The notes under the pieces are model-generated. The model was given only the letters and a program-made list of their open reading frames with translations, was not told where the DNA came from and did not search any database. Both the position numbers and the translations under genes were made by a program. Shown here piece by piece: positions 13,010-57,909 of a stretch of 64,000 bases of DNA. Each line of letters begins with the position of its first letter. Position 1 is the first letter of the stretch. The stretch comes from Acidimicrobiia bacterium (GTDB lineage: Bacteria > Actinomycetota > Acidimicrobiia > Acidimicrobiales > CATQHL01). Location: positions 1 through 64,000 of the forward strand of contig VXXM01000039.1 in NCBI GenBank assembly GCA_009835395.1. Direction: 5' to 3'.

Positions 13010-14227
13010 GTGATCGGGACTGTGACGGTGGATGCACGAATCAGCGACTGGGTTGTCCAGCGCGTCGTGCGGCGCGTCATGGGCCCGCTGGTTCCGCTCA
13101 CGGCGACGGTCGCCGCGCTGCTGGTCGGGGCGGCCATGGTCTGGGGATTCGGCGGTGACCCCGTCGAGGGCTACCGCGCCATGTTCACCGGCGCCTTCGG
13201 CGGGATCAGCGAGTTCGCCGACACCACCGTCAAGGCGACGCCGCTGCTGCTCGTGGGCGTGGGCATCTGCATCGCCTTCCGGGCCTCGGTCATCAACATC
13301 GGCGGGGAGGGGCAGATCATCGCCGGCGCACTGCTGTCCACCGTCGTGGTGCTGGCGCTGCCGGATCTGCACCGAGGCGCGCTGCTGCCCCTGGCGCTGA
13401 TCGCCGGCGCGGTCGGCGGCGCCTGCATGGGGTTCATCCCGGGCGTGCTGAAGGCCTACGCCAACGTGAACGAGATCCTCTCCACGATCATGCTCAACAT
13501 CGTGGCGGGGTACATGATGCAGTACCTGCTGCTGGGTCCGATGATCGACAAGGAGGCCGTGGAGGCCGGCAATCACATCGCCCAGACGAAGCGCCTGTCG
13601 CCCAACTCCGACCTGCCGATCCTGCTCGGGGACACGCAGATGAACCTCGGCATCGTCATCGGTGCCGTGGTCGCCATCGGCGCCTTCTTCCTGCTGTGGC
13701 GCACGTCGCTCGGCTACGAGATCCGGGCGGTCGGCGGCAGCAAGGACGCCTCCCGCTACGCCGGCATGAAGGTGGAGCGCAGGATCGTGCAGGCGCTGAC
13801 GCTCAGCGGGATGATGTCGGGGCTCGGTGGCGCGGTGCTGGTGTTCTCCTCGGTGGCCCACCGGCTCAGCGTCGAGAGCGGTCCGGCCGGCTTCACGCAG
13901 TTGGCCGGATTCAACGGCATCGTGGCGGCCCTCTTCGGCGGGCTGCACCCGCTGTGGACCATCCCCGCCGCCATCCTCTTCGGAGGTCTGCTGGTGGGGG
14001 CGAACGCCCTGCAGCGGGCCGTGCAGGTGGCGACGCCGCTCGTCGTTGCGCTCAGCGGGCTGGTCGTGGTGTTCGTCGTCAGCAGTGACCGGGCGGTGCG
14101 CTGGGCGCGGCACCTGGGGGAGCGGTTCGACATCGGCGCATCACCCGAGCATGACCGCACCGGGAGCGCCGCCTCCGGTGGGGCGGATGCTCCGACGACG
14201 CCGTCCGGCGAGGGAGCGGAGCCATGA
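13010..14227 (+). CDS. BMP-type (nucleoside-class) ABC transporter permease, first subunit
   Basis: An integral membrane subunit of about 405 residues in the BPD_transp_2 family (YufP/NupP-like), which forms the channel for nucleoside-class uptake with BMP binding proteins. Multiple hydrophobic spans begin at about residue 25. The characteristic INIGGEGQIIAGAL segment and the cytoplasmic-loop motif GYEIRAVGGSKDASRYAGM are present. The C-terminal ~40 residues form a hydrophilic tail rich in Ala, Ser and Pro. GTG 13010 follows GAGGGGC with short spacing; GTG 13022 is an alternative. It overlaps the next permease by four bases (ATGA), so the two are translationally coupled. The order here is permease-permease-binding protein-ATPase, less common than binding protein first. 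Confidence 0.88.
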   Translation: MIGTVTVDARISDWVVQRVVRRVMGPLVPLTATVAALLVGAAMVWGFGGDPVEGYRAMFTGAFGGISEFADTTVKATPLLLVGVGICIAFRASVINIGGEGQIIAGALLSTVVVLALPDLHRGALLPLALIAGAVGGACMGFIPGVLKAYANVNEILSTIMLNIVAGYMMQYLLLGPMIDKEAVEAGNHIAQTKRLSPNSDLPILLGDTQMNLGIVIGAVVAIGAFFLLWRTSLGYEIRAVGGSKDASRYAGMKVERRIVQALTLSGMMSGLGGAVLVFSSVAHRLSVESGPAGFTQLAGFNGIVAALFGGLHPLWTIPAAILFGGLLVGANALQRAVQVATPLVVALSGLVVVFVVSSDRAVRWARHLGERFDIGASPEHDRTGSAASGGADAPTTPSGEGAEP

Positions 14228-15237
14228 CTCCGAGTCTCGCCGCGCTCGACATCGCGACCGTGGAGGTGTTCGCCCAGGCTCGCAGCGGCTGGAGCGGCTT
14301 CTTCACGCTTGCCACGCTCGTGGTCACCGTGGCTTCAGCCATCCGCCTGGCGGCGGCGTACCTCATCGCGGCGGTCGGCGAGAGCGTCGGCCAGCGCAGC
14401 GGGGTGCTCAACCTCGGCGTCGACGGCGTCATGCTGTTGGGGGCGTTCGGCGCCTATTACACCATGCTGCAGACCGGCCAGCCGTGGTACGGGCTGCTGG
14501 TGGGCCTCGGCGTCGGCTCGGTCATGGGGCTGGTCTACGCCTTCATCACGGTGACGCTCCACGCCGAGCAGGGCATCAGCGGCATCGGCATCTACCTCTT
14601 CGGCCTGGGGTTCAGCGACCTGCTGTTCCGCCAGCTCGTCGGCACGCCGCTCCCCATCCGGGGCTTCGACGGCCTGTTCGACTCCACAGTGCCCGAGGGC
14701 CGCCTGGACATCGAGTACCCGGATCTCTACAACCACAGCCTCGTCATCTACCTGGCGTTCCTGTTGGTCCCCGCAGTGACCCTGCTCGTCAACCGCACGA
14801 CGTTCGGGCTCAACATCCGGGCGGTCGGCGACACGCCCCAGGCCGCCGACAGCCTCGGCGTGAGCGTGGCCCGCACGCGCTACGGCGCGATCCTCATCGG
14901 CAACACCCTCGCCGGCGCCGCAGGCGCCGTCCTGGCGCTCGAGACGACGGGCATCTTCATCCAGAACATGACCAACGGCATGGGCTTCATCGCCGTGGCG
15001 CTGGTGTACTTCGGGGCGTGGCGCCCGCTGGGCGTGTTGGCCGGGTCGCTGCTGTTCAGTCTGGTGACCTCTGCGGTGCTGCAGTGGCAGACGCTCGGGA
15101 TCCTCAGCGGGGCGGCGGCCCAGCTCACCGCGATGGCGCCCGCGGCGGTGACGATCATCGCCCTGGTGGTCGTGACGCACCGCATCGGCGCACCCTCGGC
15201 GCTCACGCGACCATTCCGGCGCGGCGCCGAGCACTAG
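14224..15237 (+). CDS. BMP-type (nucleoside-class) ABC transporter permease, second subunit
   Basis: The partner permease (YufQ/NupQ-like, 337 residues) of the preceding gene, with the family-typical early block VGESVGQRSGVLNLGVDGVM, many hydrophobic spans and the coupling-loop sequence GLNIRAVGDTPQAADSLGV that docks on the ATPase. Its ATG overlaps the upstream stop (ATGA). The last codons and stop lie inside the first copy of a 34-bp tandem repeat that continues into the intergenic region. Confidence 0.88.
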   Translation: MTPSLAALDIATVEVFAQARSGWSGFFTLATLVVTVASAIRLAAAYLIAAVGESVGQRSGVLNLGVDGVMLLGAFGAYYTMLQTGQPWYGLLVGLGVGSVMGLVYAFITVTLHAEQGISGIGIYLFGLGFSDLLFRQLVGTPLPIRGFDGLFDSTVPEGRLDIEYPDLYNHSLVIYLAFLLVPAVTLLVNRTTFGLNIRAVGDTPQAADSLGVSVARTRYGAILIGNTLAGAAGAVLALETTGIFIQNMTNGMGFIAVALVYFGAWRPLGVLAGSLLFSLVTSAVLQWQTLGILSGAAAQLTAMAPAAVTIIALVVVTHRIGAPSALTRPFRRGAEH

Positions 15238-15316
15238 CCGACAACATCTCCGGCGCGGCGCCGAGCACTAGCCGACAACATCTCCGGCGCGGCGCCGAGC
15301 ACTAGCCGACAACATC
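15216..15316 (+). repeat. Three tandem copies of a 34-bp unit overlapping a permease 3' end
   Basis: Units begin at 15216, 15250 and 15284 with the same sequence (starting CCGGCGCGGCGCCGAGCACT and running to ...CAACATC). The first copy encodes the last residues and the TAG of the permease, so the repeat reproduces that 3' end twice after the gene. Each copy contains the self-complementary GGCGCC. The array lies between the permease and binding-protein genes. Confidence 0.9.
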
Positions 15317-15361
15317 GTTGCCGAGGCTGCGAACTGAACAAATTGTTAGGGAGTTTTGGCG

Positions 15362-15421: not shown

Positions 15422-17440
15422 ATGAGAATGTCCACAAGACGCGCCAAGTCCTTCGGACTGCTCGCGGCGCTGCTGGCGATCGTGCTGCTGGCCGCGGCCT
15501 GCGCCGGCGACGACGAGGAGGCGGTCACCGAGGCGCCGGCACCGGCGCCGACACCGCCGGCAGAGACAGAGGCACCGGCGACCGACGAGGCGCCGGAAAC
15601 CGACGATGCACCGCCCCCGCCGCCGCCGGCCGAGCCGTCTGGGCCGTTGCGGGTGGCGATTGTGGCGCCGTCGGCGTCGAATGATCTGGCGTTCACGCAG
15701 AGCATCGTGGATGGTGTTGCGGCGTTGGGTGAGACGCGTGAGTTGGAGGTGGAGGTCACTGACGGGACCTTCATCGTTGAGGATGCTGCGGTGGCGATTC
15801 GGGAGTACGCGGAGTCCGGGTTCGATCTGGTGATCGCGCACGGTTCGCAGTACGGCGGGTCGCTGCAGGAGATCGCCCAGGACTTCCCGGACACGTCGTT
15901 CGCGTGGGGTACCTCGAACGACACGTTCGGTTTGGCGAATGTGTTCGCTTATACGGCGGCGTCGGATCAGGGCGGTTATGTGCTCGGGTCGATGGCGGCG
16001 GCGTTGACCGAGACGGGTGTGATCGGCGTTGTGGGACCCATCGAGGTGGGTGACGCGAAGCTGTTCGTGGACGGTTTCGTGTCCGGCGCGGGTGCGCAGG
16101 ACGCCTCGGTGGACGTCAATGTGGTGTACACGGAGTCCTTCAGCGATGTGGCCAAGGCCGCGGAGACCGCCGAGGCGCACGTGTCGCAGGGCGCGGACGT
16201 GATGACCGGTACGGCGCAGATGGTCGTGGGTGCCGTGGGCGTCGCGCAGCGTGAGGGAGCGGCGTGGTTCGCGACGCAGGCCGATCAGACGGAGTTGGCG
16301 CCGGAGATCGTGGTGGCTTCCCAGGTTTATGAGTGGGAGGTCATCCTTTCGGAGATCGCCGCTGCGATCGATCGGGGTGTCAAGGGCGGCGAGTCGTTCA
16401 CGCTCACGTTGGCCAACGGCGGCCTGAACATTGCCTTCAACGACGCTTACGGCCTGTCGGCGGACATCCGTGCGATCGGCGAGGACACCGTCGCCGGCAT
16501 CATCGACGGCAGCATCAACACGATGGGCGAAGCCGCTCCGGCTCCGTCTGGGCCGTTGCGGGTGGCGATTGTGGCGCCGTCGGCGTCGAATGATCTGGCG
16601 TTCACGCAGAGCATCGTGGATGGTGTTGCGGCGTTGGGTGAGACGCGTGAGTTGGAGGTGGAGGTCACTGACGGGACCTTCATCGTTGAGGATGCTGCGG
16701 TGGCGATTCGGGAGTACGCGGAGTCCGGGTTCGATCTGGTGATCGCGCACGGTTCGCAGTACGGCGGGTCGCTGCAGGAGATCGCCCAGGACTTCCCGGA
16801 CACGTCGTTCGCGTGGGGTACCTCGAACGACACGTTCGGTTTGGCGAATGTGTTCGCTTATACGGCGGCGTCGGATCAGGGCGGTTATGTGCTCGGGTCG
16901 ATGGCGGCGGCGTTGACCGAGACGGGTGTGATCGGCGTTGTGGGACCCATCGAGGTGGGTGACGCGAAGCTGTTCGTGGACGGTTTCGTGTCCGGCGCGG
17001 GTGCGCAGGACGCCTCGGTGGACGTCAATGTGGTGTACACGGAGTCCTTCAGCGATGTGGCCAAGGCCGCGGAGACCGCCGAGGCGCACGTGTCGCAGGG
17101 CGCGGACGTGATGACCGGTACGGCGCAGATGGTCGTGGGTGCCGTGGGCGTCGCGCAGCGTGAGGGAGCGGCGTGGTTCGCGACGCAGGCCGATCAGACG
17201 GAGTTGGCGCCGGAGATCGTGGTGGCTTCCCAGGTTTATGAGTGGGAGGTCATCCTTTCGGAGATCGCCGCTGCGATCGATCGGGGTGTCAAGGGCGGCG
17301 AGTCGTTCACGCTCACGTTGGCCAACGGCGGCCTGAACATTGCCTTCAACGACGCTTACGGCCTGTCGGCGGACATCCGTGCGATCGGCGAGGACACCGT
17401 CGCCGGCATCATCGACGGCAGCATCAACACCGGTTCCTAG
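15422..17440 (+). CDS. BMP-family substrate-binding lipoprotein with two identical ligand domains
   Basis: The extracellular receptor of the BMP-type transporter. A signal peptide with lipobox LAAAC (Cys27) is followed by an acidic, Pro/Thr-rich linker and two complete BMP/PnrA-type domains at about residues 72-367 and 375-670. Each starts GPLRVAIVAPSASNDLAF and contains the family's GVIGVVGP and ADVMTGTAQMVVGAV regions. The two are identical in residues and, on reading, in nucleotides (15635-16521 and 16544-17430), joined by a short MGEAAPA linker. BMP proteins normally have one such domain. AAAGGGG before ATG 15422 is a good SD. Codon choice in the domains (many GTT, GGT, TTG, CGT) is less GC-biased than in the neighbours. 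The ligand is probably a nucleoside or related heterocycle, by family only. Confidence 0.9.
   Translation: MRMSTRRAKSFGLLAALLAIVLLAAACAGDDEEAVTEAPAPAPTPPAETEAPATDEAPETDDAPPPPPPAEPSGPLRVAIVAPSASNDLAFTQSIVDGVAALGETRELEVEVTDGTFIVEDAAVAIREYAESGFDLVIAHGSQYGGSLQEIAQDFPDTSFAWGTSNDTFGLANVFAYTAASDQGGYVLGSMAAALTETGVIGVVGPIEVGDAKLFVDGFVSGAGAQDASVDVNVVYTESFSDVAKAAETAEAHVSQGADVMTGTAQMVVGAVGVAQREGAAWFATQADQTELAPEIVVASQVYEWEVILSEIAAAIDRGVKGGESFTLTLANGGLNIAFNDAYGLSADIRAIGEDTVAGIIDGSINTMGEAAPAPSGPLRVAIVAPSASNDLAFTQSIVDGVAALGETRELEVEVTDGTFIVEDAAVAIREYAESGFDLVIAHGSQYGGSLQEIAQDFPDTSFAWGTSNDTFGLANVFAYTAASDQGGYVLGSMAAALTETGVIGVVGPIEVGDAKLFVDGFVSGAGAQDASVDVNVVYTESFSDVAKAAETAEAHVSQGADVMTGTAQMVVGAVGVAQREGAAWFATQADQTELAPEIVVASQVYEWEVILSEIAAAIDRGVKGGESFTLTLANGGLNIAFNDAYGLSADIRAIGEDTVAGIIDGSINTGS
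15635..17430 (+). repeat. 887-bp perfect direct repeat within the BMP gene
   Basis: Copies at 15635-16521 and 16544-17430, period 909 bp (303 codons), separated by 22 bp. The reading frame is kept, so each copy encodes a full BMP domain. No base difference was noticed, which implies a very recent duplication, ongoing gene conversion or an assembly effect. Confidence 0.9.
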
Positions 17441-17454
17441 GATCGAGAGACCGG

Positions 17455-17491
17455 GGCCACCTCGCGGGGCGCTTGCATCCGCGAGGTGGCT
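17455..17491 (+). terminator. Stable hairpin between binding-protein and ATPase genes
   Basis: GCCACCTCGCGG (17456-17467) pairs perfectly with 17479-17490, 12 bp plus a G-T pair, around an 11-nt loop. There is no T-tract. Inside an operon this is more likely a partial terminator or 3' stabiliser that lets the binding protein be made in excess over the ATPase. Confidence 0.6.
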
Positions 17492-17572
17492 CCGGCCGAT
17501 CCCAACCTGCAGCGCACGACCCCGCAACCCACGGCTTCGGAGGAGATCCGGCGTGACGGAGCGATCCCACAC

Positions 17573-19096
17573 ATGAGCGCCGCCCCGCCGCTGCTGGAGA
17601 TGCGCGGGATCACCAAGCGGTTCCCGGGCGTCCTCGCCAACGACGCCGTCGACTTCAACCTCGAGGCCGGCGAGGTGCACACTCTGCTGGGGGAGAACGG
17701 AGCGGGCAAGAGCACGCTCATGAAGATCCTCTACGGCATGTATCGCGCCGAGGCCGGCGAGGTCTTCCTGCGCGGGCAGCGGGTTGTGATCGACTCCCCG
17801 TCGGCCGCCATCGAGCACGGCATCGGCATGATCCACCAGCACTTCATGCTGGTGCCGCCCCTCACCGTGACAGAGAACGTGGCACTCGGACTGCAGTCGA
17901 GTCGCCGCCCGCTCACCGACCTGCCGACGGTGGCGAACCGGATCCGCGAGCTCTCAGAGACGTACGGGCTGCGCGTCAACCCCGACGCCCCCCTCTGGCA
18001 ACTCGCCGTGGGGGAGCGCCAGCGGGTGGAGATCCTCAAGGCCCTCTACCGGGAGGCGACCGTCCTGGTCATGGACGAGCCCACCGCGGTGCTCACCCCC
18101 CAGGAGGTGGACGAGCTGATCGTCGTCCTGCGCCGCATGGCCGCCGACGGTCGGGGCCTGGTCTTCATCTCGCACAAGCTGCACGAGGTGATGGCGGTCT
18201 CGGATCGCATCACTGTGCTGCGCGACGGCCGCGTGACCGGGGAGACCACGCCGGCCAACACCGACCGCGCCGAACTCGCCCGCCTCATGGTCGGCCGGCC
18301 AGTGCAGATGGTGCCGGATCGTCCCGACGTGCAACCCGGCGAGCCGTTGCTGGAGGTGACCGATCTCCACGTGCTGAGCGACCGCGGCGACGAGGCCGTG
18401 GCGGGGATGTCGTTCGGCGTGCGCGCCGGTGAGATCCTGGGACTGGCCGGGGTTTCCGGCAACGGCCAGTCCGAGTTGGCCCAGGCGATCGCCGGGCTGC
18501 GCCCCGTGCAGGAAGGCAGCGTCCTGATCGACGGGAACGACGTGACCGGGCAACACCCGCGGCGGGTGCGCGACGCCGGTCTCTCGTACGTGCCCGAGGA
18601 GCGCATGCGCGACGGCGTGATCGGGATGTTCTCGGTGGCGGAGAACCTGGTCCTGCTGAACCAGGGCACCGAGTTCAGCCGCAGGGGATTCCTGCGACTG
18701 GGGGCCATGCGGGAGCACTGCCGGGATCTGGTCGAGCGGTTCGCCGTCAAGACGCCCCACATCGACGTGCCGACGTCGAACCTCTCCGGCGGCAACATCC
18801 AGAAGCTCATCCTGGCTCGGGAGTTGTCGGCGGAGCCCAAGGTGATCCTGGCCGCCCAGCCCACGCGCGGCGTGGACGTCGGCGCCGCCGAGTACATCCA
18901 CAACCGGCTCGTGGCCCAGAAGGCGGCGGGGTGTGCCACCCTGCTGATCTCTGAGGACCTCGACGAGGTTCTGGCGCTGTCGGACCGCATTGGTGTGATG
19001 TACGAGGGCCGCATGATGGGCGTTCTGGATCGCGCGGAGGCCACCGTGGAGCGCCTTGGCCTCTGGATGGCGGGAGTGGCCGGCGGAGCGGCCTGA
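17573..19096 (+). CDS. BMP-type (nucleoside-class) ABC transporter ATP-binding protein
   Basis: A double-length ATPase (507 residues, YufO/NupO-like) energising the adjacent permeases. Two nucleotide-binding halves are visible. The first has Walker A GENGAGKSTLMKIL and Walker B VLVMDEPTAVLTP. The second has the variant P-loop region GVSGNGQSELAQAI and signature NLSGGNIQKL. The first half's signature is weakened (WQLAVGERQRVEI), as is normal for this group. ATG 17573 is chosen because the conserved LLEMRGITKRFPGV starts at once. The GTG at 17486 falls in the right arm of the intergenic hairpin and would add 29 unconserved residues. It is the last gene of the transporter set and converges with the regulator at 19124. 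Confidence 0.9.
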   Translation: MSAAPPLLEMRGITKRFPGVLANDAVDFNLEAGEVHTLLGENGAGKSTLMKILYGMYRAEAGEVFLRGQRVVIDSPSAAIEHGIGMIHQHFMLVPPLTVTENVALGLQSSRRPLTDLPTVANRIRELSETYGLRVNPDAPLWQLAVGERQRVEILKALYREATVLVMDEPTAVLTPQEVDELIVVLRRMAADGRGLVFISHKLHEVMAVSDRITVLRDGRVTGETTPANTDRAELARLMVGRPVQMVPDRPDVQPGEPLLEVTDLHVLSDRGDEAVAGMSFGVRAGEILGLAGVSGNGQSELAQAIAGLRPVQEGSVLIDGNDVTGQHPRRVRDAGLSYVPEERMRDGVIGMFSVAENLVLLNQGTEFSRRGFLRLGAMREHCRDLVERFAVKTPHIDVPTSNLSGGNIQKLILARELSAEPKVILAAQPTRGVDVGAAEYIHNRLVAQKAAGCATLLISEDLDEVLALSDRIGVMYEGRMMGVLDRAEATVERLGLWMAGVAGGAA

Positions 19097-19123: not shown

Positions 19124-19516
19124 CTAACCCTCGCGGTCGCGACCGCCCGAAGCCGGCTGCTCCATGGCGTTGAGGTAGTTGTAGATGGTGATGCGGCTGA
19201 CCCCCATGGCGGCCGCAACGTCCTCCACACCCTTGCGCAGCAGGAAGGCGCCCCGCTCGGTCAGCAGCCGCACCGCGATCTGCTTGTCGGTGCGCGACAG
19301 GTTCGCCAGCGAGTCGCCCAGCTCGCGTTCGATCGTCTCGATCAGGCGACCCAGCGCGCCGTCCAGCCCCTGCAGGCGCAGCACGCCCACTGTCTCGCCC
19401 TCGAACTCCAGGGGAATGTCCCCGGGCGTCTGCTCACCCGTCGGCAGCAACTCGCCGCCCACCGCAGCCGCAACGGGCCGCAGTGTTCGCCAGAGCGGGT
19501 GCTCGTCGTCGCTCAT
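19124..19516 (-). CDS. YheO/DauR-type helix-turn-helix transcriptional regulator
   Basis: A small (130-residue) DNA-binding protein. Its C-terminal half matches the HTH_22 type of YheO/DauR regulators: LSRTDKQIAVRLLTERGAFL followed by the recognition region VEDVAAAMGVSRITIYNYLN. The N-terminal ~60 residues are short compared with DauR, whose PAS-like YheO domain is longer, so the sensor is reduced. Its start overlaps the stop of the upstream thiamine-binding-family gene (ATGA), so both belong to one minus-strand unit. A perfect palindrome lies between this unit and the divergent carbamoylase gene and is the obvious candidate target. Function inferred: local control of ureide or nucleobase catabolism. 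Confidence 0.75.
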   Translation of the reverse strand: MSDDEHPLWRTLRPVAAAVGGELLPTGEQTPGDIPLEFEGETVGVLRLQGLDGALGRLIETIERELGDSLANLSRTDKQIAVRLLTERGAFLLRKGVEDVAAAMGVSRITIYNYLNAMEQPASGGRDREG

Positions 19517-19791
19517 TCGTCGCCGGCCCGTGCCGGCGCGTCGGGGGGCTCTAGCCCAGGCCGCTCGAGACGGAGGGCGATCCTCGTGGCGCCCGCCTGG
19601 GTGGCGTCGCGAATCATGACCGCCACCGCCTGCGCCAGCCGCTCGGGCTCGCCCGCGGCGGTTGTTGCGAACGGCCCCACGTCGGTGGCGATGCCGAGGT
19701 CCTCGAAGGCGGCAATCGCCGCCTCCACGTGCGGGCCCGGCGAACCCTCCGAGAAGGGCTCGACGAAAAACTCGATGTGTACGATTCCCAT
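19513..19791 (-). CDS. MTH1187/YkoF-like thiamine-binding family protein
   Basis: A 92-residue protein starting MGIVHIEFFVEPFSEG, with the ferredoxin-like alpha/beta pattern and the late RIALRLER strand of the MTH1187 (thiamine-binding, formerly DUF77) family. Members bind thiamine or related pyrimidines and often accompany uptake or salvage genes. It is short but compact, with its stop overlapping the start of the DauR-type regulator by four bases. The start at 19791 follows the divergent operator region with no clear SD, so it may be leaderless. Assignment is by overall pattern only; binding to thiamine itself is not shown by any single residue I can point to. Confidence 0.7.
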   Translation of the reverse strand: MGIVHIEFFVEPFSEGSPGPHVEAAIAAFEDLGIATDVGPFATTAAGEPERLAQAVAVMIRDATQAGATRIALRLERPGLEPPDAPARAGDE

Positions 19792-19823
19792 GGCAGTGCC
19801 GATCGCCGGTTGGCCGGTGGGGT

Positions 19824-19849
19824 CATTGACACCCCCCGGGGTGTCAATG
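19824..19849. promoter_or_regulatory. Perfect 26-bp palindromic operator in a divergent promoter region
   Basis: CATTGACACCCC and its exact reverse complement face each other around a 2-bp CC centre, in the 69-bp gap between the divergent thiamine-binding/regulator unit and the carbamoylase gene. Each arm holds TTGACA, the consensus -35 hexamer, on one strand. A repressor binding here would block both promoters. Confidence 0.75.
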
Positions 19850-19860
19850 AGCATAGGCAC

Positions 19861-21192
19861 GTGAGCAATGCAGCGAGCAGCGATCTGGGTGACCTGCGGA
19901 TAGACGTCGACCGGCTCCTGGGCCGCCTGGAGGCCCTGGCGCAGATCGGCGACACCGGCGACGGCGGGAACTGCCGGCTGGCGCTGACCGACGAGGACCG
20001 CGACGGGCGGGACCTGGTGGTGGGCTGGATGCGCGACCTGGGCCTGTCGGTCACGGTGGATGTCGTCGGCAACGTGGTCGCCGTGTACCCGGGCGCCGGT
20101 GACGGTCCCCCCGTCATGACCGGCAGCCATATCGACACCGTCCGGACCGGCGGCCGCTACGACGGCAACCTGGGCGTGCTGGCCGGGTTGGAGGTCATCG
20201 AAACCCTCAGCACCGCCGGCGTGCGGCTGCGCCGCCCTTTGGCTGTCGCCTTCTTCACCGATGAGGAGGGCTCGCGGTTCCCGCCCGACATGCTGGGGAG
20301 CCTCACGTTCGTGGGCGGCATGAGCGTCGAGGAGGCTCTCGACGTGACCGACAGCGACGGGATCACCGTGGGCGCCGAGTTGGACCGCATCGGCTACCGC
20401 GGGGCCGCCCCGTGTCCCGCCCCGGCGCCGTTCGCCTTCGTCGAGCTGCACATCGAGCAGGGCCCCGTGCTGGAGCAGGATGGCGTCACCATCGGTGCGG
20501 TCACCGGCGTGCAGGGCATCTCCTGGCAGGAGGTGACCATCGAGGGGCAGTCCAACCACGCTGGCACGACGCCGATGCACATGCGCCGCGACGCCGGCCA
20601 CGCCGCCGCCCGCGTGGCGGTGGCGGCGCGGGAGATTGCCGCCGACATCGGTGGCTACCAGGTCGCCACGGTCGGGGTCATGGACCTGCACCCCGACCTG
20701 GTGAACGTGGTCGCCGGTAGGGCGCGGCTCTGCGTGGACATGCGCAACATCCACGAGCAGGAGCTGCAGCAGGCGGAACGGCTCATGGCGACGAGCATCG
20801 AGCGGATCGCCGCCTCCGAGGGCGTCGGCATCTCCACCCGCTCCATGGCCCGCTTCGAGCCGGTCATCTTCGACATCCCGCTGGTGGACCTCGTGGAGGC
20901 CACCGCCCGGCGCCTGGGTCACAGCGTGAAGCGTCTGCCCTCGGGCGCCGGCCACGACGCCCAGATGCTGGCGAGGGTCTGTCCCACCGGGATGATCTTC
21001 GTGCAGAGCCACAAGGGGCTCAGCCACAATCCTGCCGAGTACACCGCACCCGCCGACCTGGCGGCCGGCGCCGACGTGCTGCTGCAGGTGATGATCGACC
21101 TTGCCACCCGCGAGGGCGACATCCCGGAGGTGTCGCCGACGGGCGGCGAGTTCGCCCGCGGCGAGCGGGGGGTCGGCGCGGCACACGACTGA
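19861..21192 (+). CDS. M20-family N-carbamoyl-L-amino acid hydrolase / allantoate amidohydrolase-type enzyme
   Basis: A zinc or manganese amidohydrolase (443 residues) cleaving ureido (carbamoyl) compounds to an amine, CO2 and ammonia. The M20 metal ligands are recognisable: GSHIDTV, GRYDGNLGVLAGLE, DEEGSRFPPDMLGS, ELHIEQGPVLE, then QSNHAGTTPMHMRRDAGHAAA in the dimerisation domain and the final ligand region SGAGHDAQML with SHKGLSHNPAEY. These match HyuC/AmaB and AllC. GTG 19861 is preferred: sequence upstream of it in the same frame runs through the palindrome and the antisense gene. Whether it acts on carbamoyl amino acids, allantoate or a pyrimidine ureide cannot be read from sequence. The neighbouring nucleoside-class transporter and carbonic anhydrase suit any of these. 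Confidence 0.88.
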   Translation: MSNAASSDLGDLRIDVDRLLGRLEALAQIGDTGDGGNCRLALTDEDRDGRDLVVGWMRDLGLSVTVDVVGNVVAVYPGAGDGPPVMTGSHIDTVRTGGRYDGNLGVLAGLEVIETLSTAGVRLRRPLAVAFFTDEEGSRFPPDMLGSLTFVGGMSVEEALDVTDSDGITVGAELDRIGYRGAAPCPAPAPFAFVELHIEQGPVLEQDGVTIGAVTGVQGISWQEVTIEGQSNHAGTTPMHMRRDAGHAAARVAVAAREIAADIGGYQVATVGVMDLHPDLVNVVAGRARLCVDMRNIHEQELQQAERLMATSIERIAASEGVGISTRSMARFEPVIFDIPLVDLVEATARRLGHSVKRLPSGAGHDAQMLARVCPTGMIFVQSHKGLSHNPAEYTAPADLAAGADVLLQVMIDLATREGDIPEVSPTGGEFARGERGVGAAHD

Positions 21193-29592: not shown

Positions 29593-30801
29593 ATGGCTGC
29601 CGAAGCACCGGACATCCTCTCACCGGCGTTCAACGAGGATCCCTACCCGATCCTGGCCGCCCTGCGGGAGGACCACCCGCTGTACTTCCACGAGCAGATG
29701 AACTCTTACCTCATCACCCGTTACGACGACGTCTCTAGCGCCTTCAAGAACCCCGTTTTCACGACCCTCAACTACGAGTGGCAGCTCGAGCCTGTGCACG
29801 GGCCCACGCTGCTGTCCATGGAGGGGCGCAACCACTCGCGCTACCGCAACCTCGTGGCACCCGAGTTCCGGGGGCGGGTGCTGCAGGAGAGCTTCCTGCC
29901 CGTCATCGAGCGCAACAGCGCAGAACTGCTCGACGCGTGGCGCCACGACGGGCACGTGGACTTCGTGCAGCAGTACACAACCTGGTTCCCCGTCAAGGTG
30001 ATCGTGGACATGCTGGGCCTGCCGGCCGACGATCACGCCCTGTTCCATCGCTGGTACACCACGATCAACGTCTATCTCGCCAACCTGGCGGGCGATCCGG
30101 AGATCAACGCCGCCGGCGAGCAGGTCCGCGAGGATCTGGAGGCCTACATGCTTCCGGTCATCGAGGATCGCCGCCACAACCCGCGCGACGACCTCCTCAC
30201 CAAGCTCGTGCACGCCGAGGTCGACGGTGAGCGTCTCGGCGACATCGAGATCAAGTCGTTCGTGAGCCTGCTGCTGACCGCCGGCGGCGAGACCACCGAC
30301 CGGTCGCTCACGAACATGTTCTGGCGGCTGATCGAGAACCCTCGCCAGATGGCGGCGGTGCGTGAGGACCGCAGCCTGATCCGCAACGCCTTCGCCGAGA
30401 CGCTGCGCCACACACCGCCGGTGCTGATGATCATGCGCCAGCCGTCGGAGGACGTGGAGGTGACCGGCGGGGTGATCCCGGCAGGTTCTACGGTGACCTG
30501 CCTACTGGCCGGGGCCAACCGTGATCCGCGGGCTTTCGAGGATCCCGACCGCTTCGACATCTTCCGCGACGACCTGGACGTCGAGCGGGCCTTCACCTCG
30601 GGGGCCAATCACCTCACGTTCGCGCTGGGCCGCCACTTCTGCGTGGGTGCCCTCTTGGCGCTCACCGAAGTGGTCACAGGCGCCGGTCAGGTGCTCGACG
30701 CCTGCGAGGATCTGGCCTTCGCCAACGGCCCGCCGACGCCGGAGGGAGTGTTCACGCGCTCCCCGCTGCACATGGACCTCACGTTCACGCCGGCGTCCTG
30801 A
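29593..30801 (+). CDS. Cytochrome P450 (AGGETTD/NYEWQ group, copy 2)
   Basis: A 402-residue P450, first gene of the rightward operon, with I-helix TAGGETTDR, K-helix ETLRHTPP and heme loop FALGRHFCVGA. GGAAGGAG just before ATG 29593 is an excellent SD. The protein is closely similar along its whole length to the next gene (identical runs such as AFAETLRHTPPV, IPAGSTVTCLLAGANRDP, HVDFVQQYTT and VIVDMLGLP), so the two arose by tandem duplication. Copy 1 at 23094 is a more distant relative. Possible substrate differences would come from the B-C and F-G regions, which differ most (YTTINVYLANLAG here versus YSSIMAFLSNLIG). Confidence 0.93.
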   Translation: MAAEAPDILSPAFNEDPYPILAALREDHPLYFHEQMNSYLITRYDDVSSAFKNPVFTTLNYEWQLEPVHGPTLLSMEGRNHSRYRNLVAPEFRGRVLQESFLPVIERNSAELLDAWRHDGHVDFVQQYTTWFPVKVIVDMLGLPADDHALFHRWYTTINVYLANLAGDPEINAAGEQVREDLEAYMLPVIEDRRHNPRDDLLTKLVHAEVDGERLGDIEIKSFVSLLLTAGGETTDRSLTNMFWRLIENPRQMAAVREDRSLIRNAFAETLRHTPPVLMIMRQPSEDVEVTGGVIPAGSTVTCLLAGANRDPRAFEDPDRFDIFRDDLDVERAFTSGANHLTFALGRHFCVGALLALTEVVTGAGQVLDACEDLAFANGPPTPEGVFTRSPLHMDLTFTPAS

Positions 30802-30870
30802 GGATCGGGACCGAGCGCAGGAATCGCCGCACGCCGCCACCATCGAGACCACGAACCGGAGGAACACGCC

Positions 30871-32070
30871 ATGACCCCCGACATCCTCTCGCCGGAGTTC
30901 TCCGAGGATCCGTTCCCGGTGCTCGAGTTGATGCGCGACGAGCACCCGGTCTACTTCCACGAGGCCATGAACTCGTACATGATCAGCCGCTACGAGGACG
31001 TGGAGCGGGCCTTCAAGGATCCGGCCTTCAACTCCAACAACTACGAGTGGCAACTCGAGCCGGTGCACGGGCCCACCATCCTGCAGATGGAGGGGCGCGA
31101 CCACTCCCGGCACCGCAACCTCGTCACGCCGGCCTTCCGGGGCGCCGACCTGCGGGAGAAGTTCATGCCGGTGATCGAGCGCTGCAGCACCGAGCTCATC
31201 GACAACTGGCGGACCGACGGGCACGTGGACTTCGTGCAGCAGTACACCACCCGCTTCCCGATCAACGTGATCGTGGACATGCTGGGCCTGCCCAAGTCCG
31301 ACCACGACCGGTTCCACGGCTGGTACAGCTCGATCATGGCGTTCCTGTCGAACCTCATCGGCGATCCCGATGTGATGGCCGCTGGCATCCGCACCCGCGA
31401 CGAGTTGCAGGCGTACATGCTGCCGATCATCGCCGACCGGCGCAGTTCCCCCGGCGATGACCTGCTGACGACGCTCTGTCAGGCCGAGATCGACGGCGAG
31501 CGGCTCAGCGACATCGAGGTGAAGGCCTTCGTGAGCCTGCTGCTGACCGCAGGCGGCGAGACCACCGACAAGTCCATGGCCAACATGTTCTGGCGCCTCA
31601 TCGAGAACCCCGATCAGATGGAGGCGGTGCGCGAGGACCGCAGCCTCATCCGCAACGCCTTCGCCGAGACGCTGCGGCACACGCCGCCGGTGCAGATGAT
31701 CATGCGTGAGACCGCCGAGGAGGTGGAGATGTCGGACGGGACGATCCCGGCCGGTTCCACGGTCACCTGCCTGCTCGCCGGCGCCAACCGCGATCCTCGA
31801 AAATATGCCGACCCCGACCGCTTCGACATCTTCCGGGAGGACCTGGACATGGAGAAGGCCTTCACGGCCGCCGCCAATCACACCTCCTTCGCCCTCGGGC
31901 GGCACTTCTGTGTCGGCGCCATCCTGGCGCTGAACGAGGTGGAGACCGGCACCAACCAACTGCTGGACGCCATGGATGAAATCGCCTTCGTCAACGGGTC
32001 GCCGACGCCGGTGGGCGTCTTCACCCGGTCACCGGTGCACATGCCGCTGACGTTCCGTCCCGCCGCCTGA
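30871..32070 (+). CDS. Cytochrome P450 (AGGETTD/NYEWQ group, copy 3)
   Basis: The tandem paralogue of the preceding P450 (399 residues), with TAGGETTDK, ETLRHTPP and FALGRHFCVGA. Its ATG has CGGAGGA upstream at proper spacing. The two genes are 69 bp apart. Conservation is highest in the heme, I-helix and C-terminal parts and lower in the substrate-facing regions, as expected for paralogues with diverging substrates or successive oxidation steps. As with the other P450s, no redox partner is encoded nearby, so electrons must come from a ferredoxin elsewhere in the genome. Confidence 0.93.
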   Translation: MTPDILSPEFSEDPFPVLELMRDEHPVYFHEAMNSYMISRYEDVERAFKDPAFNSNNYEWQLEPVHGPTILQMEGRDHSRHRNLVTPAFRGADLREKFMPVIERCSTELIDNWRTDGHVDFVQQYTTRFPINVIVDMLGLPKSDHDRFHGWYSSIMAFLSNLIGDPDVMAAGIRTRDELQAYMLPIIADRRSSPGDDLLTTLCQAEIDGERLSDIEVKAFVSLLLTAGGETTDKSMANMFWRLIENPDQMEAVREDRSLIRNAFAETLRHTPPVQMIMRETAEEVEMSDGTIPAGSTVTCLLAGANRDPRKYADPDRFDIFREDLDMEKAFTAAANHTSFALGRHFCVGAILALNEVETGTNQLLDAMDEIAFVNGSPTPVGVFTRSPVHMPLTFRPAA

Positions 32071-54895: not shown

Positions 54896-56116
54896 TCAGG
54901 CGGCGTCGCGGGCGGCGGTCAGCCACTCGTCCACCTGCGCCCGGTTGGCTTCGATCCACTCAGCGGCGTGGCGGTTCACGTCGGCGGTCGTGTTCTCGCC
55001 CTCGTCGAAGCGCACGTTCTGCAGGGCGACGTCGATCACGGTGAGCGTGACGAGCTCGAACAACTTCCGTGCCGCCGGGTTTGCGGCCAGGAAGTCGTTG
55101 TTGGCGACGACCCTGATGTCGGCCGCGGCGAAGCCCGTGTAGCAGGGATCGTTGGTGCAGTACTCGGGGCCGAGCGCCGCGGGCGGGAAGTCGTCGAAGT
55201 CGAAGGCACCGGTCGTCGACCCGTCCAGCACGTTCTCGTGCTCGACGGCGAGCCAGACGACATTGTCGCCCGGGATCAGGCGGGTGAGGTAACCGCTGGG
55301 TGACCAGGTGTAGACGATGACCGGATCACCGTCCGCAACTTTGGCGACGGCTTCGGCGAACATGGCGTCGTAGCCGGCTCTCACGGCTTCGAGGTTGTCC
55401 CAGCCGTTGAACTCGATCGTCTCGGCGAAGATGTCGTCACAGGTCCATCCGTCCGGGCAGACCAGAATCTGCACGACACCGTCGCCCGGGCTCGTGTCGG
55501 TTGCGTCATAGAGGGCGATGAGGTCGGGATCGTCGTTGATCTGGCCGACGGTCTTGATGCCGTACTCCTCGGCGATGTCCTTGTTGGTCAACAGACCCTC
55601 GAGGCCGGCGGCGGCAATCTCCCATCCGACGATCTCGACGTGCTCCGCCACGATGGAGCCGTCTGCCAGTTCGGCCTCGAAGAACTTGAGGTGGCCGGGG
55701 ATCCAGCCGTTGACCCAGAAGTCCACCTCGCCCCGACCGAGCGCCACGTAGAAGATGTCGTTGGCCAACTCGTGCTCGGCCGGTTCGCTGACGTCGTAGC
55801 CCAACTCCTCGAGCAGGTGGTGGTAGATGGCCGCCTGCATGTAGCCCGTCGACCAGGTCGCACGGGCCTGTGTCACCGAGACACCGGCGCCCGGGTTCAT
55901 GTAGGCCTCCGCCGCGGCCTCTTCCGCCTCCTCGACTTCCGCCGGATCCGGGGCGGCTTCCTCGTCGGCAACCGCTTCCTCCTGTGTGGCCGCTGCGTCA
56001 CTCGGTGCCGGCGCCGGGGCATCGGTGTCCTCGGTCGTGCACGCCGCAACCAGCAGCGCCAGGACCGCTACAAGCCCGATGCCGGCGGTCATGAGTGTTC
56101 TCACTCGAGTCGTCAT
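54896..56116 (-). CDS. Glycine betaine/proline-type ABC transporter substrate-binding lipoprotein (copy 1)
   Basis: An OpuAC/ProX-type receptor for betaine-like osmoprotectants (406 residues): signal peptide with lipobox LVAAC, a short acidic Ala/Glu linker (about 30-70), then the OpuAC fold with aromatic ligand-cage candidates in ARATWSTGYM, DFWVNGWIPGH, EFNGWDN and YTWSPSGY. It closely matches copy 2 in the ligand domain (PGAGVSVTQARATWSTGYM shared), so they are paralogues, but its stalk is much shorter. GGGAGG precedes the ATG. It is the last gene of the minus-strand transporter locus. Confidence 0.9.
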   Translation of the reverse strand: MTTRVRTLMTAGIGLVAVLALLVAACTTEDTDAPAPAPSDAAATQEEAVADEEAAPDPAEVEEAEEAAAEAYMNPGAGVSVTQARATWSTGYMQAAIYHHLLEELGYDVSEPAEHELANDIFYVALGRGEVDFWVNGWIPGHLKFFEAELADGSIVAEHVEIVGWEIAAAGLEGLLTNKDIAEEYGIKTVGQINDDPDLIALYDATDTSPGDGVVQILVCPDGWTCDDIFAETIEFNGWDNLEAVRAGYDAMFAEAVAKVADGDPVIVYTWSPSGYLTRLIPGDNVVWLAVEHENVLDGSTTGAFDFDDFPPAALGPEYCTNDPCYTGFAAADIRVVANNDFLAANPAARKLFELVTLTVIDVALQNVRFDEGENTTADVNRHAAEWIEANRAQVDEWLTAARDAA

Positions 56117-56222
56117 GGCGGTGGTACCTCCCGGATAGGGATGTTCGGAACCGGGTTCACGTCAGTCGACCCGTCGACCCGGTGAGCCTAGGCGGGGCCA
56201 ACGAAGGACTGCGTCGAACGCG

Positions 56223-56250
56223 GAAGGGCGGACCCGGAGGCCCGCCCTTC
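56223..56250 (-). terminator. Hairpin between the two betaine-binding-protein genes
   Basis: GAAGGGCGG (56223-56231) pairs perfectly with CCGCCCTTC (56242-56250) over a 10-nt loop, in the 185-bp gap between the paralogous genes. Partial terminator or mRNA stabiliser. Confidence 0.55.
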
Positions 56251-56301
56251 TCTCGGCTGCTTCGGTTCAGTTCAGCGGGCTGCTGCCCGCCGGGTTCCGG
56301 C

Positions 56302-57909
56302 TCAGGCGGCCTCGCGTGCGGCCTGCAGCCACTCGTCGACCTGTGCCCGGTTGTTCTCGATCCACAGGGCGGCGTGGTGGTTCACGTCGGCGGTCGTGTT
56401 CTCGCCGGCGTCGAAGCGCACGTTCTGCAGGGCCACGTCGACCACGGAAATCTTGACGCTCTCGAAGAGAGACCGGGCTGCCGGGTTGGCGGCCAGGAAC
56501 TCCGAGTTCGCCACGACCCGGATGTCGGCCGCAGGCCAACCCGTGTAGCAGGGATCGCCGGTGCAGAATTCCGGACCCAGGCTCGCGGGCGGCAGGTCGT
56601 TGAAGTCGAAGCCGTCCACGGTGGAGCCGTCGAGCACGTTGTCGGCGGTGCCCACCGAGACCCAGATGGCGTTGTCGCCGGGGATCAACTGGGTGAGGTA
56701 GCCGCTTGGTGACCACGAGTAGGCGATGAACGGCTTGCCGTCCTGGAGGTTGGCGACGGCGTTGGCGAACATGGCCTCGTAGCCGGCATGCACGGCCTCG
56801 AGGTTGTCCCAGCCGTTGAACTCGAAGGTCTGCGCGGCGATCTTGGCGCAGTTCCAGGCGTCGGGGCACGAACCGACCTGGATCACGCCATCGCCGGGCG
56901 TGATGTCCGCAGCGTCGTAGAGCGCCACGAGTTCGGGGTCGTCGTTGATCTGCCCCAGCGTCTGGATGCCGTACTCCTCGGCGAGAGCCTTGTTCGTGAG
57001 GAAGCCCTCGAGACCCGCTGCCGCCAGTGACACGCCGACCAACTCGATGTGGTCGCCGATCAGCGAGCCGTCGGAGAGTTCGTCATCCCAGAAGTTGAGG
57101 TGGTTCGGGATCCAGCCGTTGACCCAGAAGTCCACCTCTCCCTCGGCGAGCGCCACGTGGAAGATGTCGTTGGCCAACTCGTTGTCGGCGGGTTCGCTGA
57201 CGTCGTAGCCCAACTCCTCGAGCAACTGGTTGTAGATGGCTGCCTGCATGTAGCCCGTCGACCAAGTGGCACGCGCCTGCGTCACCGAGACGCCCGCACC
57301 CGGGCTCATGAACGCCGCGGCGGCGGCCGCTTCGTCCGTTGCGGCCTGCAACTCGGCGGCTTCCTGCTGAGCCGAAGCGGCTTCGGCTTGCGCGGTGGCT
57401 GCCTCTTCCTGGGCGGCGGCGGCTTCGGCTTGCGCGGTGGCTGCCTCTTCCTGGGCGGCGGCGGCTTCGGCCTGGGCCGAGGCTGCCTCTTCCTGGGCGG
57501 CGGCGGCCTGCGCGCTTGCCGCCTCGGCGGCGGCTTGCGCGTCAGCCAGCGCCGCTTCGGCTTCGGCGATGGCGTCCGCGCTGCCCGAAGCCGTGGCTTG
57601 GGCCAACTCGGCGGAGGCCTGAGCTTCCGCGGCAGCGGCTGCTGCCGCGTCTGCCGCGGCCGCCGCGGCCTCTGCGGTGGCTGAGGCTGCGGATGCCTCC
57701 GCCTCGGCTGCGCCTGCCCTGGCGTCAGCGGCGTCGGCACCGGCCTGCGCGCCCGACGCGGCGGCCATCGCGGCCGCTGCGTCGGAGGCCGCTGCTGATG
57801 CAGCGTCCTGCGCCGCGGTGTCCTCCGCGGCGCACGCAGCGGCGATCAGCGCCAGCGCGCTGAGCAGCGCCAACACGCCTGCGACGCGTGTCTTTCTGAG
57901 CGTTCTCAT
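56302..57909 (-). CDS. Glycine betaine/proline-type substrate-binding lipoprotein with long Ala-rich stalk (copy 2)
   Basis: An OpuAC-type receptor (535 residues). A signal peptide with lipobox IAAAC (Cys26) is followed by about 170 residues of alanine-rich heptad-like coiled coil, including three near-identical 14-residue repeats (AQAEAAAAQEEAAT). The ligand domain starts at about residue 200 with PGAGVSVTQARATWSTGYM and holds FWVNGWIPNH, EFNGWDN and YSWSPSGY. It is a paralogue of copy 1; the stalk resembles those of the M16 peptidase and sugar-binding lipoproteins. GGGGAGG 9 nt before ATG 57909 sets the start. A palindrome lies just upstream. Confidence 0.9.
   Translation of the reverse strand: MRTLRKTRVAGVLALLSALALIAAACAAEDTAAQDAASAAASDAAAAMAAASGAQAGADAADARAGAAEAEASAASATAEAAAAAADAAAAAAAEAQASAELAQATASGSADAIAEAEAALADAQAAAEAASAQAAAAQEEAASAQAEAAAAQEEAATAQAEAAAAQEEAATAQAEAASAQQEAAELQAATDEAAAAAAFMSPGAGVSVTQARATWSTGYMQAAIYNQLLEELGYDVSEPADNELANDIFHVALAEGEVDFWVNGWIPNHLNFWDDELSDGSLIGDHIELVGVSLAAAGLEGFLTNKALAEEYGIQTLGQINDDPELVALYDAADITPGDGVIQVGSCPDAWNCAKIAAQTFEFNGWDNLEAVHAGYEAMFANAVANLQDGKPFIAYSWSPSGYLTQLIPGDNAIWVSVGTADNVLDGSTVDGFDFNDLPPASLGPEFCTGDPCYTGWPAADIRVVANSEFLAANPAARSLFESVKISVVDVALQNVRFDAGENTTADVNHHAALWIENNRAQVDEWLQAAREAA
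57381..57506 (-). repeat. Three tandem 42-bp repeats encoding the lipoprotein stalk
   Basis: Units begin at 57381, 57423 and 57465 on the plus strand (CTTCGGCTTGCGCGGTGGCT and on). The first two are almost identical and the third slightly diverged. Each encodes 14 residues, i.e. two heptads, so copy number changes would lengthen the stalk in register. Confidence 0.85.

Follow-up and report, generated by a model that had tools for sequence, protein, structure and literature searches.

The window, by which we mean the whole 64,000-nucleotide stretch of DNA analysed, carries at 15422-17440 on the forward strand a single open frame of 672 aa that encodes a BMP/PnrA lipoprotein with two ligand-binding domains. 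The gene sits in a canonical importer operon with two permeases upstream and the ATPase downstream. The features of the locus are the following.

13010-14227, forward strand: ABC permease 1 (BPD_transp_2; PF02653, 4.6e-36).
14224-15237, forward strand: ABC permease 2 (BPD_transp_2; PF02653, 4e-37).
15422-15634, forward strand: N-terminal leader of the receptor, a signal peptide whose lipobox reads LLAAAC (Cys27), followed by a tether of some 45 residues rich in Pro, Ala and Glu, from sequence and translation.
15635-16522, forward strand: Bmp/PnrA ligand-binding domain, copy 1 (296 aa; Pfam PF02608, model with pLDDT 93.4, fold match to AtzT, 6pii).
16523-16543, forward strand: 7-residue inter-domain linker MGEAAPA, from sequence; the linker of each relative differs.
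16544-17431, forward strand: Bmp/PnrA ligand-binding domain, copy 2, identical to copy 1 in protein, with one silent boundary base differing in 879 bp.
17486-19096, forward strand: ABC ATPase with two nucleotide-binding halves (PF00005, two stretches), given as the longest ORF, so that the true start may be downstream.
19124-19516, reverse strand: HTH_22-type regulator (PF13309), a conserved neighbour by synteny.
19729-21192, forward strand: M20-family allantoate amidohydrolase-type enzyme (NCBIfam NF006769, 462 bits against a cut-off of 452; synteny).

The position of the ATPase gene directly downstream of the receptor is kept in relatives, and a RutB/biuret-hydrolase-like enzyme (scores below the cut-offs) is also encoded near the locus. 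Both the operon and the lipoprotein signal, the LLAAAC lipobox read in the receptor translation, are those of the BMP/PnrA family. The leader is fast-evolving, yet it is also found in relatives. Just upstream of the receptor, at the 3′ end of the second permease gene, a 34-bp unit occurs about three times (15215-15332) with a TAG stop codon within each unit; a contig end of G005, a genome of the same genus, shows one such unit. In G006, another genome of the genus, a separate single-domain BMP gene with 78% identity lies downstream of the ATPase on contig C90 (L059: 5801-6682, minus strand) and represents an additional receptor gene in the same operon region.

The two domains are encoded by a direct repeat (15635-16521 and 16544-17430) that is exact over 887 bp, in frame and with a period of 909. 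The copies are separated by 22 bp and the linker consists of seven whole codons. An 887-bp in-frame repeat with a 7-residue linker had been described in an earlier, sequence-only reading of this DNA, and its coordinates proved to be exact. Both halves match the Pfam Bmp family (6.7e-73; 245.7 bits against a curated cut-off of 24.1; two stretches). A scan of the 64-kb window showed that this is its sole perfect long direct repeat, the next two direct-repeat families being only 75-76% alike, and an exact repeat of 887 bp cannot have arisen by chance. Tandem-like direct repeats at 55469-57177 and 29608-31176 (75-76% alike, spacings of 1409 and 1269) are probably duplicated genes. No further copy of the receptor gene was found in the genome, and among plasmid records no relative was found at E 1e-30.

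A model of the domain built from 41 homologues was confident (pLDDT 93.4); AlphaFold of the whole 672-aa protein without an alignment was poor (pLDDT 47). The top Foldseek hits of the domain model were AtzT (6pii, TM 0.89), PnrA of S. pneumoniae, a Brucella BMP protein, guanosine-bound Lbp and BmpD. Purines are stacked between two phenylalanines in BmpD and PnrA (PMC7093131). In our domain F20 and F169 are invariant in the 41 homologues and align with phenylalanine residues of the guanosine-binding Lbp. Because of these conserved aromatics and the allantoate-amidohydrolase-like and RutB/biuret-hydrolase-like neighbours, the ligand is likely a purine or a ureide-type nitrogen compound. An assignment to the putative B6 ABC transporter (NF047927-NF047930) was rejected, as the receptor scored 163.7 against 400 and the permeases and ATPase also fell below the NCBIfam equivalog cut-offs.

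The genome of the window (G000) is a fragmented metagenome-type assembly of 95 contigs, and nearly all genomes of its genus are assemblies of the same type. In the public genome set the relatives are Acidimicrobiia assembled from metagenomes, and several of them bear isolate names resembling sponge metagenome series (IRC4, RHO, SB06xx); to judge from these names the window's host is probably sponge-associated. Assemblies typically run into trouble at exact repeats that exceed the length of a short read, and the second domain could in principle be an artefact created from a single-domain gene. However, G002 and G007, which belong to other species of the genus, harbour this double gene within the same operon, and their repeats are exact over 880 and 896 bp. 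Their linkers (MAGPTADGIDT and MGEPAPAEPSG, respectively) both differ from that of the window, so that two copies were assembled in three species with three different linkers.

Contigs of four more species (G001, G003, G005 and G006) break at the double-receptor locus. G005 C37 starts with exactly 55 nt from the end of copy 1, followed by the linker and copy 2. G006 C103 stops exactly 55 nt into the domain at CCGTTGCGG, and G006 C90 starts 55 nt before the point where the end of the gene leaves the repeat. G001 C29 starts exactly 77 nt before ATCAACAC, the boundary that ends the repeat in the window. Two other contigs, G003 C111, which ends inside the domain start, and G005 C482, which ends in the leader, have ends that were not matched to a k-mer length. 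The SPAdes assembler uses k-mer sizes of 55 and 77, and contig names in the G002, G005 and G006 records are SPAdes-style. Contig ends that lie exactly one k-mer inside the repeat boundary, as in three of the species, are what short-read assembly leaves behind at a genuine exact repeat. Taken together, seven of the eight genomes of the genus carry either the double form or the break signature, while in G004, an assembly fragmented into 640 contigs, no orthologue was found. Since De Bruijn assembly tends to collapse rather than create exact tandem repeats, and diverged doubles elsewhere were assembled without flattening, an artefact is very unlikely; we regard the doubling as real. The independent genomes effectively exclude the mis-assembly that had earlier been left open as an origin of the second domain. 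SPAdes removes simple bubbles, which could hide a few single-base differences, and 'perfect' may therefore mean 'nearly perfect'; a repeat loop in the assembly could likewise hide more than two copies of the domain.

The contrast between identity within the gene and divergence between species survives this bubble-removal caveat. In G000, G002 and G007 the copies differ at 0-1 of 879 bp within a gene, whereas 51-76 differences per 879 bp were counted between species. The fourfold-site divergence of the domain (0.15-0.22 compared to G000) is within the range of the flanking genes in the same genomes (0.15-0.47), and therefore the domain is not simply slow-changing. The presence in seven of eight genomes suggests that the duplication is older than the species of the genus. 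If so, each lineage must have homogenised its copies on its own. A very recent event had been one of three earlier explanations for the identity of the copies; the doubling is instead common to the genus and only the homogenisation is recent.

Further double genes were found by a scan of public genomes and by class- and order-level searches. Their copies range from 878 of 879 identical positions (L113 of G103) and 97.4% identity (G262) to 86-96% in a group of five genomes (G494, G520, G544, G568 and G583), 83-84% in L084 and L114, and 77% in L138 from Chloroflexota. The copies of G494 are identical for about 750 bp, but the final 140 bp at the 3′ end contain 38 differences. G544 has an identical core of 680 bp with diverged ends, and G520 has two identical tracts. 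Runs this long occurred in 0 of 5000 random placements of the differences. When G544 was compared to G494 within the tracts, the N-to-N and C-to-C differences were equal bin by bin. To judge from the sequences, the tract pattern in these three genes is that of gene conversion, which had been among the earlier options and appears to have been the right one. In G494-G583 (L195-L199) and in G008 (L180), the conversion tracts stop about 140 bp before the domain end; in these last 140 bp the N and C copies are strongly diverged, as if the region were protected or functionally distinct.

A second double BMP protein of 715 aa is encoded on contig C61 of G000, beside its own ATPase and permease genes, and the halves of this gene are 85.6% identical in DNA. 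Most genomes of the genus have this gene, and so does G008, which belongs to another genus; on a 2.55-Mb contig of G008 the halves share 98.5% identity, including an uninterrupted match of about 800 nt. The C copy of G006 switches from N-type in the 5′ half to C-type in the 3′ half. At least three domains are present in the G003 gene, the middle one being C-type first and N-type afterwards when followed along 69 informative sites. Such a C/N hybrid would be the expected product of unequal crossing-over between copies. The number of domain copies therefore does change. Between the second double locus of G000 (L066) and that of G005 (L178) there is 97.8% identity across 4.9 kb, as against about 85-92% protein identity for other genes compared in this pair of genomes; the excess could stem from recent recombination between species or from mis-binning.

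These observations bear on the possibility that each species duplicated the domain independently and very recently, without homogenisation. Repeated duplication inside the genus would also yield identical copies, in agreement with the 0-1 differences in all three assembled species, and the linkers vary by species, with the linker and C-terminus of G005 being different in kind. However, this would require at least three recent duplications with almost identical boundaries in one genus, in which seven of eight genomes carry the double form or its break signature. Related doubles also display partial conversion tracts and a crossover hybrid directly. We consider independent duplication improbable.

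Doubled BMP receptors have arisen several times. On a tree built from 94 domains, six changes of the double state are required, at least five of them forced by starred branches. Genes with one domain lie close to, or are sister to, the doubles of the window's genus (L074), L113, L084/L114 and L138. In the five-genome group and in L084/L114 the N and C copies fall largely into separate groups of the tree, and these doubles are therefore old, whereas the copies of L113 and of the window's genus are identical. The majority of relatives are single-domain, including the single-contig genomes G059, G139, G180 and G245, and the double form occurs in about 7 of 52 class-level genomes with a match. This agrees with the earlier statement that BMP/PnrA receptors are normally single-domain. 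The search for single and double forms in related genomes, which had been proposed along with it, found both, including diverged and homogenised doubles.

We conclude that the locus probably encodes an in-frame duplicated BMP receptor, the copies of which are homogenised by recombination and which is retained for receptor capacity. A tandem in-frame duplication of the ligand-binding domain would have occurred, most likely before the species of the genus separated, and gene conversion together with unequal crossing-over between the repeats would keep the two (or more) domains identical in each species. Each domain would fold and bind the same ligand independently. One anchored receptor would then offer two binding sites to one permease pair, which would double the sites per lipid anchor near the translocator, and the double form would be retained by selection for this capacity. 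The evolutionary part of this reading finds good support in the sequence patterns, most directly in those of the related double genes. We infer the transport benefit of two heads by analogy. In GlnPQ the tandem domains bind independently and non-cooperatively, and a longer linker slows transport (PMC8025302); by the same analogy each head of our receptor should act independently.

Neutral maintenance of the double form is a serious rival. Repeat instability would make and maintain the doubling, and the protein would be no better than a single-domain receptor. Recombination alone accounts for homogeneity and copy-number change, one domain suffices for most orthologues, and the mutual independence of the GlnPQ domains (PMC8025302) fits such a reading as well. 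On the other hand, tandem repeats are readily expanded and lost via RecA recombination (PMC11721125). Because exact repeats are so easily lost, yet at least two domains have been kept throughout the genus and have reappeared in several families, selection for two or more heads is suggested. Moreover, the frame and both domains are intact. We therefore regard neutrality as unlikely and prefer retention for receptor capacity. A bolder extension is that Acidimicrobiia BMP receptors make up a recombining multi-domain system, with unequal crossing-over changing the count of identical heads per lipoprotein from strain to strain (two, three or more), and that this count acts as a reversible dial on nutrient-capture capacity; this is speculative and at present rather doubtful.

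The receptor shares the Bmp domain, the fold, the lipoprotein nature and the operon of two permeases and an ATPase with known BMP/PnrA proteins (AtzT, PnrA, BmpD and Lbp). The full-length solved members that were matched have the length of one Bmp domain (about 300-420 residues), whereas here two identical domains are present in one chain on one lipid anchor. Two tandem receptor domains behind one translocator, joined by a short linker, are also found in GlnPQ (SBD1-SBD2; PMC8025302). The domains of GlnPQ differ in specificity and are fused to the permease, in contrast to the identical domains of this separate BMP-family lipoprotein, the gene of which ends right after domain 2, with the permeases encoded by separate genes. 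As in the concerted evolution of intragenic repeats in spider silk genes (PMC3933166), copies are more alike within a gene than between species, but the unit here is a whole globular receptor domain of 300 residues in a bacterium. A search of the open-access literature turned up no publication that deals with tandem BMP receptors or with concerted evolution in them.

The genes described here are multi-headed BMP receptors evolving in concert. Such multi-domain receptors are probably under-counted, because short-read assemblies tend to break or flatten these genes. With single, double and at least triple forms in related genomes, and with diverged, partly converted and fully homogenised multi-domain forms among them, they provide a clean bacterial case of whole-domain concerted evolution. 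They also offer a natural test of whether added identical receptor domains improve an ABC importer without the change in specificity that accompanies the tandem domains of GlnPQ.
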